A model generated the notes under the pieces. It was not told the origin of the DNA, made no database searches, and worked only from the letters and a program-made list of their open reading frames with translations. A DNA stretch of 28,573 nt from a virus: positions 1 through 28,573 of the IMG/VR virus record IMGVR_UViG_3300009788_000255, one strand, 5' to 3'. The position numbers and the translations under genes are program-made. Of the stretch, positions 18,168 to 28,498 are shown piece by piece (the first letter of the stretch is position 1; the number at the start of each line of letters is the position of its first letter).

Positions 18168-18521
18168 ATGAAATCAGAAGAATTAAGATTAGGTAATTAT
18201 TACAACCGAACGGACGGTAAAGACAAAAGTGTTCAAGTAAATATTAATGACATGGTTGCATGGTCGAAGGGGGCTATATATGGCAAACCCATCCCATTAA
18301 CAGAAGAATGGTTAGTTAATTTTGGGTTTGATTTAGATATTGGGGTAGGTGTTTGGTTTGGTAATAAATTTGGGGATTATCGTTTTACTATATGGGATAA
18401 ATACGAAGGTGTGGAATATAAATTCAGTATAGAAAATTCATTATATATTCAATTAAAACACGTCCATCAACTCCAAAACCTATACTTCGCTTTAACAGGA
18501 GAGGAATTAGAAATTAATTAA
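18168..18521 (+). CDS. hypothetical protein of a common Bacteroidota phage type
   Basis: This 117-residue protein has a recognisable layout: MKSEELRLGNYYNR at the start, PIPLTEEWLVNFGFDLDIG in the middle, and VHQLQNLYFALTGEELEIN at the end. Proteins with the same start, 'PLTEEWL-FGF' centre and 'VHQLQNLYFALTGEEL' end recur in Bacteroidota phages and prophages, to my knowledge without known function. It is the last gene before the promoter and structured RNA element at 18523-18635. Confidence 0.7.
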   Translation: MKSEELRLGNYYNRTDGKDKSVQVNINDMVAWSKGAIYGKPIPLTEEWLVNFGFDLDIGVGVWFGNKFGDYRFTIWDKYEGVEYKFSIENSLYIQLKHVHQLQNLYFALTGEELEIN

Positions 18522-18522
18522 C

Positions 18523-18530
18523 TATATTTG
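18523..18530 (+). promoter_or_regulatory. promoter -7 box TATATTTG for the structured RNA and nuclease operon
   Basis: The box begins two bases after the previous stop codon. If transcription starts about 4 bases beyond it, the RNA begins at about 18534, the first base of the S1a arm. An 8-bp inverted repeat, TTTGTGAT (18527-18534) with ATCACAAA (18549-18556), overlaps the box and could be an operator. No TTG lies 19 bases upstream. Confidence 0.6.
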
Positions 18531-18533
18531 TGA

Positions 18534-18635
18534 TGCAGAACGTATGAAATCACAAACAATATTTATTAAAACATTAGACCTTAGAGCGGTTACATCATCT
18601 AGTTTTGTATGTTCTGCACCCCGCTCTTTAGGTCT
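18534..18635 (+). ncRNA. putative pseudoknotted RNA: mRNA leader or small phage RNA
   Basis: Two stems interleave. S1 pairs TGCAGAACGTA (18534-18544) with TATGTTCTGCA (18608-18618), with one G-T wobble. S2 pairs AGACCT-T-AGAGCGG (18576-18589) with CCGCTCT-TT-AGGTCT (18621-18635), 13 pairs around a 1-by-2 internal loop. The order S1a-S2a-S1b-S2b is that of an H-type pseudoknot; S1b and S2b are 2 bases apart and could stack. GC-rich arms stand out in AT-rich surroundings. An A-rich stretch (ATAAAAAAAGC) then leads to the nuclease ATG at 18656. A 53-codon ORF (18544-18705) crosses the element but uses rare codons (CCC CGC) and overlaps the nuclease gene, so I prefer RNA. Stem S2 is convincing; S1 is suggestive. 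Confidence 0.55.
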
Positions 18636-18655
18636 ATACATAAAAAAAGCAGAGC

Positions 18656-19165
18656 ATGAGATTTTTAGAAAAAGATTTAGAGGATATTATTCATTCAACT
18701 TCTAATAGACAATTAGAAGATAGGGGTTTAATAATTAAAGGGTTTAAATTAAGGCAAGTAAGGATAGGAAACTATGGTGTTGCAGATTTAATTACAATAC
18801 AAAAATTTGCTAATTTAATGAAAAATCAAGAGGGTAAAGAAAACTCTTATTGTAATGGACACAGAATAAAAGTAACAATATTTGAGTTAAAAAAAGATCA
18901 AATAACTTCAAAAACTTTAAGCCAAGCACTGAGATATTTTAAAGGTGTTAGTGAATATATTAATTCAGTTGTTGTAGATAAATATGAGTTGCTGGATTAT
19001 GATATAGATTTAGTTTTAATTGGTAGCCGTATAGAATCAGACATGTATTATGCTGGAGATTTTTTTGATAATTTGACTATTTATAAATATGAGTATAATC
19101 TTAATGGTTTATATTTTAAAAAGTTAAATAATTATAGTTTAGTTGAAAATGGATTTAAGCTATGA
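18656..19165 (+). CDS. PD-(D/E)XK-type nuclease-like protein
   Basis: This 169-residue protein begins MRFLEKDLEDIIHSTSNRQL, a helix with an acidic pair typical of this fold. It then has D44 in GVADLIT, E77-x-K79 in TIFELKKD, and a following helix SQALRYFKGVSEYI. The series acidic helix, D, E-x-K, and Q-containing helix fits the PD-(D/E)XK core found in NucS- and restriction-type nucleases. It is followed directly by replication genes and preceded by the structured RNA, so it may process replication or recombination intermediates. Activity is inferred from the motif set. Confidence 0.6.
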   Translation: MRFLEKDLEDIIHSTSNRQLEDRGLIIKGFKLRQVRIGNYGVADLITIQKFANLMKNQEGKENSYCNGHRIKVTIFELKKDQITSKTLSQALRYFKGVSEYINSVVVDKYELLDYDIDLVLIGSRIESDMYYAGDFFDNLTIYKYEYNLNGLYFKKLNNYSLVENGFKL

Positions 19166-20031
19166 GTAAATTAAGGAGTATAAGCACAGCCTTTTGGAGT
19201 GATCCATTTATAGAGAAGTTAAAGCCAGTAGAAAAACTCTTATTTATTTATCTGATTACTAATGAAAAAACTAATATGCTTGGTATTTATGAGGCGTCTA
19301 TTGGTAAAATGGCATTTGAAACAGGTATAAATGAGGGTTTGTTAGTTAATGCTTTGAAAGGCTTTGAAAAGATAGGTAAGGTTAAATATATCAATCATTA
19401 TGTAATATTAGTAAATTTCTTGAAGCACCAGAATTTCAATACCAACATGAAGAAGTCAGCTATTGATGTATATAACTCACTACCTAATGAATTAAAGGAT
19501 AAGAAGTTGTGTGTAACAAAAGATAACCCTTCTAAAGGCTTCGAAACCCTTTTAAACCATTACGGTATGGTTTCGAAAGTTGAAGTAGAAGTATTAGAAG
19601 ATGAATCTAATTTAATATATTTAAAAGATGTATCATCTCCACCTGACGGTGTAGACATATTACATTTTTATATTGCTAAAGGCTTTTACAATCTATTCCT
19701 ACTCAAAGGAGAAACTAAAACCCTATTAAAAGCTAAAGTAGTTCATTGGGTAAAGATAATACGCTTACTAATCAACGAGGATAAAGTAACCCTAGAACAG
19801 TTAGTAGCTATTAAATACTACTTTGAGAAATGCCAGCAGGGAGACCGGCAGGTAAAAGATTGGTGGTTTAATAACATCAATAGCGTAGCAGCATTTAGAA
19901 AGAAGGATAAGGATAACGAATATCATTATGATAAAATAACTAAGGACATTAAGGTATGGGTAAAATCTAATCCAGATATTCAGGCAGAGGTAATAACACG
20001 AACTAAAAAACTTAAAGAGAAAACAAAATGA
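19162..20031 (+). CDS. replication initiator-like protein (replisome-organiser type N-terminus)
   Basis: This 289-residue protein begins SISTAFWSDPFIEKLKPVEK, then LLFIYLITNEKTNMLGIYE and a winged-helix-like segment ending KYINHYVILVNFLKHQN. This is the pattern of phage replisome organisers and O-type initiators, which bind the origin and recruit the helicase. The C-terminal region (ALKYYF-like helices, EKCQQGDRQVKDWWFNNINS) may contact the helicase. The downstream ATPase is a likely partner. It overlaps the nuclease stop by 4 bases. Confidence 0.65.
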   Translation: MSKLRSISTAFWSDPFIEKLKPVEKLLFIYLITNEKTNMLGIYEASIGKMAFETGINEGLLVNALKGFEKIGKVKYINHYVILVNFLKHQNFNTNMKKSAIDVYNSLPNELKDKKLCVTKDNPSKGFETLLNHYGMVSKVEVEVLEDESNLIYLKDVSSPPDGVDILHFYIAKGFYNLFLLKGETKTLLKAKVVHWVKIIRLLINEDKVTLEQLVAIKYYFEKCQQGDRQVKDWWFNNINSVAAFRKKDKDNEYHYDKITKDIKVWVKSNPDIQAEVITRTKKLKEKTK

Positions 20032-27728: not shown

Positions 27729-27923
27729 ATGAGTTATTGGGTAAGAAAAGCCAACCTAATAACTGTGTGGAAAGGTATAGAGGATGTAGAGAATTGGTTA
27801 GATATTAAGATACCCACAACCAACCAACGTAAGACAAAGGTAACAGTAACCATTAACGATATAGCCTTAATAGCTGAGTTATGGAGTGAGGATATAGAAT
27901 TATATAATAGATTAAGTAAATGA
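27729..27923 (+). CDS. hypothetical protein, perhaps missing its N-terminus
   Basis: From ATG 27729 it has 64 residues: MSYWVRKANLITVWKGIEDV, a KIPTTNQRKTKVTVTINDIA segment and an end helix ELWSEDIELYNRLSK. The same frame is open back to 27660 and codes GLEFSEWLEHLKGGFYDSHQ before the ATG. That looks like genuine protein but has no ATG, GTG or TTG. The gene may begin in the ORF at 27593 through a +1 shift. The function is unknown. The stop overlaps the ligase-like gene start. Confidence 0.55.
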   Translation: MSYWVRKANLITVWKGIEDVENWLDIKIPTTNQRKTKVTVTINDIALIAELWSEDIELYNRLSK

Positions 27924-28498
27924 AGAAGATGACAACACTATTCAAGAAAGACCCTAACGATCTAGGTAGAGTTATTAATGAAGTTGACCCATTAAATGAG
28001 TGGGCATTAACAAAGGGAGTAGTAACGATTAAGCGGGATGGTACAGCATGTGCAGTGATAGATGGTTTATTATACAAACGATTTGATTTAAAGAAAGGAA
28101 GAACATTACCATTGCTTGCAATACCATGCCAAGAGCCTGATTTAATCACCGGCCATCACCCTCATTGGGTGCCTTGTATTAGAGACAACCCAGCAGATAA
28201 GTATCATTGGGAGGCTTGGGACAGGTTTATGAATGCAGAAGGTAATAGAAGGTTTCAGGATGGCACGTATGAGTTGTGTGGTCCTAAGGTAAATGGTAAC
28301 CATGAACAGTTAAACATACATGTACTGATTAAACATGGTAATGGAGAAGTAATCTTTGGTGATGTAACATATGAGTCAATACAAAAGTATTTATTAAGAG
28401 AAGATATTGAGGGCTACGTGTTTCATCATCCTGATGGTAGGATGTGTAAGATAAGAAAGAAAGACTTTGGTATGAAACGAGGGGATATAAAAGTTTAA
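27920..28498 (+). CDS. RNA/DNA ligase-fold nucleotidyltransferase
   Basis: This 192-residue protein has the ligase motifs in order. Motif I is K38-RDG-T42 in TIKRDGTAC, with K38 the likely adenylated lysine. A Y-K-RFD strand follows at 52-56. The motif III-like GTYELCGPKVNGN lies at 115-127, motif IV EGYVFHHPDG at 164-173 and motif V CKIRKKDFG at 176-184. This fits a compact RNA ligase-like family (I recall DUF5565), which seals RNA or related ends using ATP. There is no obvious C-terminal binding domain. No kinase-phosphatase partner lies in the window. Specificity is not decided by the sequence. Confidence 0.75.
   Translation: MKKMTTLFKKDPNDLGRVINEVDPLNEWALTKGVVTIKRDGTACAVIDGLLYKRFDLKKGRTLPLLAIPCQEPDLITGHHPHWVPCIRDNPADKYHWEAWDRFMNAEGNRRFQDGTYELCGPKVNGNHEQLNIHVLIKHGNGEVIFGDVTYESIQKYLLREDIEGYVFHHPDGRMCKIRKKDFGMKRGDIKV

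Follow-up and report, generated by a model that had tools for sequence, protein, structure and literature searches.

Bacteroidota phages almost certainly share a family of leader RNAs in which two hairpins are predicted to kiss, the loop of the first (H1) being complementary to the loop of the second (H2). As judged from comparison of the sequences, this pairing is kept while the letters change almost completely, and we take these leaders to be an undescribed RNA family, for which we propose the name "loop-locked leaders". A TAnnTTTG promoter precedes the leader of roughly 100-130 nt, and the first replication-operon gene follows it; the RNA probably controls the switch-on of the replication genes and of some nucleases. 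The element found in the stretch of DNA analysed here (28.6 kb, in the following called the window) is very likely a divergent member of this family.

The window is a fragment of a Bacteroidota tailed phage. It carries tape measure, head, endolysin-like, Erf-like recombinase and DnaD-like replication genes, and its nearest named relatives are Tenacibaculum and Cellulophaga phages. A 192-aa protein encoded at 27920-28498 shows a weak match to Pfam RLIG1 (RNA ligase 1) with an E value of 1e-4, which is below the curated cut-off. The features of the leader and of the genes following it are:

18523-18530, + strand: Bacteroidota-type -7 promoter box TATATTTG, from the sequence and the homologous leaders
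18527-18556, + strand: 8-bp inverted repeat, TTTGTGAT at 18527-18534 and ATCACAAA at 18549-18556, flanking S1a and overlapping the promoter; equivalent of H1
18534-18544, + strand: S1a TGCAGAACGTA, 5'-terminal arm of the loop-pairing helix, extending to 18550 with wobbles
18544-18705, + strand: 53-codon frame without relatives, overlapping the leader and the nuclease start
18545-18575, + strand: A/T-rich linker, from the sequence
18576-18589, + strand: S2a AGACCTTAGAGCGG, 5' arm of hairpin H2, from the sequence and shuffles
18608-18618, + strand: S1b TATGTTCTGCA, in the loop of H2, partner of S1a, extending to 18602 with wobbles
18621-18635, + strand: S2b CCGCTCTTTAGGTCT, 3' arm of hairpin H2, followed by ATACATAAAAAAAG and no U-run
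18649-18658, + strand: nuclease start region GCAGAGCATG, with which S1b can pair instead (10 pairs including wobbles, -17.2 kcal/mol)
18656-19165, + strand: nuclease of the PD-(D/E)XK fold (NucS/EndoMS-like), first gene after the leader
19162-20031, + strand: DnaD-like/replisome-organiser replication protein (PHROG 6251 and 1701, E about 1e-14)

An earlier sequence-only reading of the window had placed the box and all four arms at exactly these coordinates, and its count of 11 pairs with a wobble in S1 and 13 pairs around a small internal loop in S2 was confirmed: S1 contains one G-U pair and can be extended with wobbles to 17 pairs (18534-18550/18602-18618), and S2 consists of 6 and 7 pairs flanking a 1x2 internal loop. 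The S1a/S1b and S2a/S2b arms interleave, so that the H-type pseudoknot proposed at the time is right in its topology; with 18 nt in the loop between S2a and S1b, the fold is better described as the 5' end of the RNA pairing with the loop of hairpin S2. The high GC content that had been noticed holds for the arms (45-50%) and not for the region as a whole, which at 34% is like the genome. An HDV-like ribozyme topology was considered and dropped, since S1b and S2b have no hairpin between them and Rfam gave no match.

With -24.9 kcal/mol S1 is the top stem (span of up to 110 nt) of the whole window, the runner-up having -19.9 kcal/mol, and S1 together with S2 is the best-scoring interleaved pair in the whole window. 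When the whole window was shuffled, a stem equal to S1 was seen in 3 of 60 shuffles and the combination of S1 and S2 was matched in none of the 60; by these shuffles alone the strength of S1 is only suggestive. At the position predicted from the homologues S1 was equalled in 0 of 4000 shuffles and S2 in 0 of 2000, and at this position the significance is decisive. RNAfold analysis of 18520-18720 forms the 8-bp inverted repeat TTTGTGAT/ATCACAAA. Its 5' arm overlaps the promoter box, and transcripts begun at this promoter should therefore lack most of that arm.

The box TATATTTG follows directly after the stop codon of the upstream gene and lies 133 nt 5' of the nuclease ATG; in the relatives the distance between box and start codon is 106-169 nt. 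The same box is present in 41 of 58 homologous leaders and TATCTTTG in 7 of 58. The box positions are partly biased by the search pattern, and the flanking nucleotides are unbiased: the 58 leaders conserve a T/C in the position next to the box and, five nucleotides past the box, a purine, which in the window is 18535. We therefore place the predicted transcription start of the window at about 18534-18535, the beginning of S1a. Taken with the chance tests, these conserved nucleotides support the proposal of a real structured phage RNA which starts from its own promoter and heads the nuclease and replication genes.

For comparison we gathered phage loci with homologues of the downstream nuclease or of the DnaD-like protein and inspected the stretch upstream of the first gene; the homologous positions come from some 70 further genomes of Bacteroidota phages. 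Most of these loci cannot be aligned with each other at the DNA level, yet one layout recurs: the TAnnTTTG box, H1 with a loop complementary to the H2 loop, H2, usually a U-run, and the start codon. A T-run of at least four nucleotides comes right after H2 in 51 of 58 leaders; because 7 of the 58 have no U-run, we do not treat it as family-defining. Between the U-run and the start codon there are 8-40 nt, and the counterpart of the A/T-rich linker in the relatives is 2-35 nt long (median 17). The kissing loops are for example GGAAT[GTTCAGG]ATTCC with GCA[CCTGAAC]TGC in leader L142 and GGTTT[GGTCTCAC..]AAACC with GCTG[AAGTGAGACC]CAGC in L163, and the same plan is found in L047, L053, L122 and others.

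The complementarity of the loops was assessed with H2 picked by stem energy and T content alone, that is, blind to loop pairing. Our routine left 15 of 73 leaders unparsed, some because the element is absent. In every one of the 58 parsed leaders the two loops can form an uninterrupted run of six pairs or more, and S1a occurs in 50 distinct sequences. When 50 representatives were analysed, pairing of a leader's own loops compared with shuffled loops gave a combined Fisher p of about 1e-36, and a foreign H2 loop paired equally well in a median of 2% of the cases.

For the analysis of covariation a 12-sequence subfamily was aligned on sequence only (alignment A3). Here the seven kissing pairs are intact in 83 out of 83 cells, and five of them show double compensatory changes, with as many as four pair types; when the register is displaced by one column, the pairing falls to 31-39%. 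A covariance model containing H1 and H2 only and no kissing information (R1) was run over 0.5 Mb and gave 34 matches with E<=1; each lies on the plus strand at a leader position, and 12 of them are training sequences. Model R2 gave 74 matches at E<=10 over 88 sources, nearly all at leaders, and recovers the leader in the isolated Tenacibaculum phage JQ (predicted at 35947-36063 of MT002873.2), whose loops AGCATCCTAC and GTAGGATGCT pair perfectly. In the R2 alignment pairing in H1, H2 and the apical helices is at 80-92%, and each of the 20 pairs has changes on both sides; since this alignment was fitted to the structure, we base the family claim on A3 and on the model-blind loop pairing. Compensation in relatives had been named beforehand as a check on the two stems, and the corresponding stems do change in this way. 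Several weak matches of model R3 elsewhere in the phage genomes (L242, L243, L245, L247, L248, L251, L252, L255 and L257) show no leader-type loop pairing and look like plain terminators or chance.

Two forms of the leader can be distinguished. S1a mostly lies in a hairpin loop (H1), and in a few members it lies at or near the 5' end. This bare-5'-end form comprises the window, both copies in L003, L109 and L127, and its S1 is longer (10-17 pairs). One copy in L003 has a TTTGTAA..TTACAAA repeat analogous to the promoter-overlapping repeat around S1a of the window. Because the repeat overlaps the promoter, transcripts started upstream would fold S1a into a hairpin and locally started ones would not. 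Such a start-site-dependent fold of S1a recalls the T4 I-TevI transcripts, which differ by start site (PMC2988022).

Further structural details recur among the relatives. Below its kissing loop H2 often has an internal loop with sheared G.A pairs. The AGUA/GAA signature of the bulged-G type (sarcin-ricin/loop E) is present in 8 of 80 leaders and was obtained for none of the permutations tried; it lies just below the kissing loop in H2 of L016, L026, L027, L122, L130, L135, L227 and L237. Many other leaders have UGAU/UGAU-like tandem-GA loops at the same place, and UGAA/GGAU also occurs there. An outer H1 stem, e.g., TTAAGT/ACTTAA, is formed in several members of one group. A small hairpin that covaries lies over the start codon in 23 of 50 leaders (ATAC-NNAAN-GTAT / TAAC-NNAAN-GTTA) and is a possible translational operator, perhaps for the nuclease itself. 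It appears as ATAC-GGAAN-GTAT(G) or TAAC-GGAAN-GTTAT(G) in the last ~15 nt before the nuclease start (in L163 up to position 1223), and the string CGGAATGT is found again in the 5' arm of H1 in several leaders without a start hairpin.

We assign the window element to this family because of its position, promoter, start nucleotide, topology and the chance tests, and not by covariation in its own leader, which has no close relatives. Like the other leaders it has a TAnnTTTG box with a predicted start downstream, ahead of a replication operon, and a 5' element complementary to the downstream H2 loop (S1 equalled in 0 of 4000 shuffles); the inverted repeat around S1a has a promoter-overlapping 5' arm which is probably not transcribed. 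A U-run directly after H2 is absent in the window, the longest T-run near the end of H2 being 3. Model R2, trained with the window left out, finds a match starting exactly at 18523, but with an E value of 8.6 and with H2 misaligned; R3 was trained with the window included, and its match to the window is circular.

Rfam 15 searched at the gathering score gave no match in the window or in the loci of 23 relatives, and at a relaxed threshold only chance-level matches appeared; the earlier statement that the RNA falls into no recognised class thus stands. A DNA-level search with the element itself found no match in named phages or viral contigs, as would be expected when the fold alone is conserved. 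In a literature search that covered few subscription journals, no kissing-loop or pseudoknot regulatory leader was found for Bacteroidota phages. The 53-codon frame is probably not a conserved protein: conservation of this frame as protein had been named as an observation that would speak against the RNA, and no relatives of it exist in the loci or in viral contigs. A conserved translated leader peptide coupled to the pseudoknot, as in the IncI-type repY/repZ arrangement, was thus not found either; among the other short frames in some relatives' leaders no conserved peptide is apparent by inspection.

The leader is usually present once per genome, heading the replication operon. The first gene behind it varies and encodes a PD-(D/E)XK nuclease, an HNH protein, a ~70-aa protein or a DnaD-like protein, which argues for control at the level of the operon and not of a specific gene. 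The nuclease of the window has invariant residues D44, E77-x-K79, Q90 and Y94 across its relatives. It gave no Pfam or PHROG match; its structure model (pLDDT 89.6) matches NucS/EndoMS in Foldseek with a probability of 1.00, an E value of 1.6e-3 and a TM score of 0.46-0.50, and by this modelled fold it is a NucS/EndoMS-like PD-(D/E)XK protein. Relatives of the nuclease are common at the same place in Bacteroidota phages, often followed by a DnaD-like gene. One relative was found in bacterial genome contigs, on a Maribacter MAG contig with the same leader as L003. In 299 genomes of the bacterial family of this MAG there are four borderline model matches, none with loop pairing, and from this near-absence we conclude that the leader is a phage RNA.

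Second copies with loop pairing stand directly 5' of NUMOD4-HNH or HNH_3 endonuclease genes in L236, L237, L238, L249 and L250 (the endonuclease of L249 was assigned by inspection, the others by Pfam). Another, L254, lies directly 5' of a GIY-YIG nuclease gene; for L240 the GIY-YIG gene follows some 350 nt further on, L253 precedes the gene of a 137-aa predicted membrane protein, and L244 has no close frame. It looks as if homing-type nucleases carry or recruit the leader control element. In Cellulophaga phage Nekkels_1, with its leader predicted at 48430-48580, a second model match (L239, 13565-13689) has a strong complementary pair TCGTCCACTAC/GTAGTGGACGA and terminator-like hairpins with no gene close 3', and could be a stand-alone RNA. 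In phage JQ (L059, 2386-2777 of MT002873.2) a non-coding stretch of ~390 nt opens with a TATATTTG box and contains several terminator-like hairpins and a CTTTAAAA..AAACAG motif repeated at intervals of tens of nucleotides.

How could such a leader work? The order of promoter, about 110 nt, terminator-like hairpin and start codon is the plan of an attenuator or of a short RNA with read-through. The constant feature is the 5' element matching the H2 loop, and the loop contact must therefore be the working part. On these grounds we favour, with about even confidence, a promoter-proximal loop-locked attenuator acting in cis that would give both a short RNA and a read-through mRNA. RNA polymerase would start at the TAnnTTTG promoter, and H1 and the H2 loop would kiss in the nascent RNA. 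The locked H2 with its U-run would then halt most transcripts, leaving a stable RNA of ~100-120 nt, and the nuclease/replication mRNA would come from the read-through fraction only. Each loop is the perfect antisense of the other, so that short RNA, once accumulated, could also bind to new leaders; this would create a feedback that depends on dose, much as in copy-number control by antisense RNAs. In the window, which has no U-run, the lock would have to work through mRNA stability or translation, or else H2 would have to be released by the overlapping start region. We found no conserved antiterminator: pairing of the 5' region with either H2 arm reaches p<0.05 in 2-3 of 77 leaders, as expected by chance. 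Lengthening of the linker with H2 length, looked for as a sign of an end-to-end intramolecular fold, was not found (correlation -0.43).

A bolder reading, which we think less likely than not, is that the leaders form an RNA switch of a new class, where the intramolecular kiss of a 5' hairpin with the loop of an intrinsic terminator would govern this terminator. Such a switch would need no ligand, protein or separate antisense RNA, and its loop sequences would be free to diversify. Its terminated product would be the antisense of the next transcript and might in this way sense the phage gene dose and throttle the replication and nuclease genes.

The leader could instead be a stand-alone sRNA with H2 as its 3' end, whose gene lies ahead of the replication operon by coincidence. 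It would act in trans, either on RNAs of the host or the phage or, like the short IsrK RNA, on the read-through mRNA of its own locus. The own promoter, the terminator-like 3' end in 51 of 58 leaders and the compact conserved fold would suit such an RNA, as would the lack of an antiterminator and the varying downstream genes, and the IsrK RNA of prophage Gifsy-1 is a published precedent for a phage RNA that serves as a short RNA and also as leader of a read-through mRNA (PMC4825925). We nevertheless consider this rather unlikely, as the leader almost always lies a few nucleotides 5' of the start of the replication operon or of a nuclease gene, which would be needless for a free sRNA gene. Moreover no conserved single-stranded seed is apparent, the candidate seed loops being tied up with each other and varying freely. 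Less probable still is that the fold is an element of translation or mRNA stability that protects the 5' end or hides and exposes the start codon in the manner of the T4 and Aeh1 homing-endonuclease hairpins. Such a function is suggested by the covarying start-codon hairpin in 23 of 50 leaders, by the ability of S1b of the window to pair with the nuclease start (p about 0.02), by the lack of the U-run in the window and by the second copies in front of homing-type endonucleases, whose translation in T4-like phages is controlled by hairpins (PMC2988022). Pairing of the H2 loop with the start region reaches p<0.05 in only 5 of 50 leaders, however, and is not a feature of the family, and most H2 hairpins have a U-run exactly where a terminator expects one.

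For the window alone one might suspect chance inverted repeats, or coding sequence of the 53-codon frame, unrelated to the family; the borderline detection by R2 and the lack of the U-run would fit. We regard this as very unlikely given the shuffles at the homologue-predicted position, in which neither stem was equalled, the presence of promoter and purine start, the lack of relatives of the 53-aa frame, and the same bare-5'-end layout in L003, L109 and L127.

Phage RNA regulation outside the T4 and lambda models is little charted. The family spans dozens of diverged phages including two growable isolates, Tenacibaculum phage JQ (host Tenacibaculum geojense) and Cellulophaga phage Nekkels_1 (host Cellulophaga sp. 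HaHa_2_1), and with a leader at the switch-on point of DNA replication and homing-type nucleases RNA control by phages in Bacteroidota becomes directly testable. If the kiss sets termination, the leader would be a compact module of RNA control whose specificity can be exchanged, given the about 50 different loop pairs already made by nature.

Several known systems share single aspects with the loop-locked leaders. In phi29 pRNA and in RNA I/RNA II of ColE1, hairpin loops (7 nt long in ColE1) are complementary to each other, and their sequence may change freely provided that they still pair. There the contacts are made between separate molecules and serve packaging or plasmid copy control, whereas here they lie in one RNA. 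The leader of T4 gene 32, a replication gene, begins with a pseudoknot close to its 5' end and continues with A-rich RNA, and the phage leader described here is similar in these respects. The parallel drawn in the sequence-only reading to a gene-specific translational operator of this kind did not hold up: the gene downstream is not fixed, none of the first downstream genes encodes a single-stranded-DNA-binding protein, and the second stem is terminator-like in most relatives.

Leader RNA structures 5' of phage HNH and GIY-YIG endonuclease genes are also known from T4 and Aeh1, where the homing endonuclease genes I-TevI, segB and mobE have simple leader hairpins hiding the ribosome-binding site (PMC2988022). 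These hairpins have no kissing loop and do not form a unit with an own promoter and a terminator. From the IsrK promoter of prophage Gifsy-1 two kinds of transcript arise, a short RNA that stops at a terminator and an operon mRNA that passes it; IsrK is a single locus acting on its own read-through mRNA, and the source abstract describes no covarying family of a 5' hairpin and a terminator loop (PMC4825925). The leader of repC in the staphylococcal plasmid pT181 has hairpin loops and an intrinsic terminator and is controlled by loop-loop kissing between hairpins with interior loops (PMC4878617). It thus resembles the phage leaders in having hairpin loops and a terminator directly 5' of a replication gene, loop-loop kissing and interior loops. 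The mutually exclusive anti-terminator and terminator of the pT181 type were not found, as in 77 leaders the corresponding pairing does not exceed chance. The kissing partner in pT181 is a second molecule, an antisense RNA, and what is sequestered there is a defined anti-terminator, whereas both loops of the loop-locked leaders are part of one transcript.
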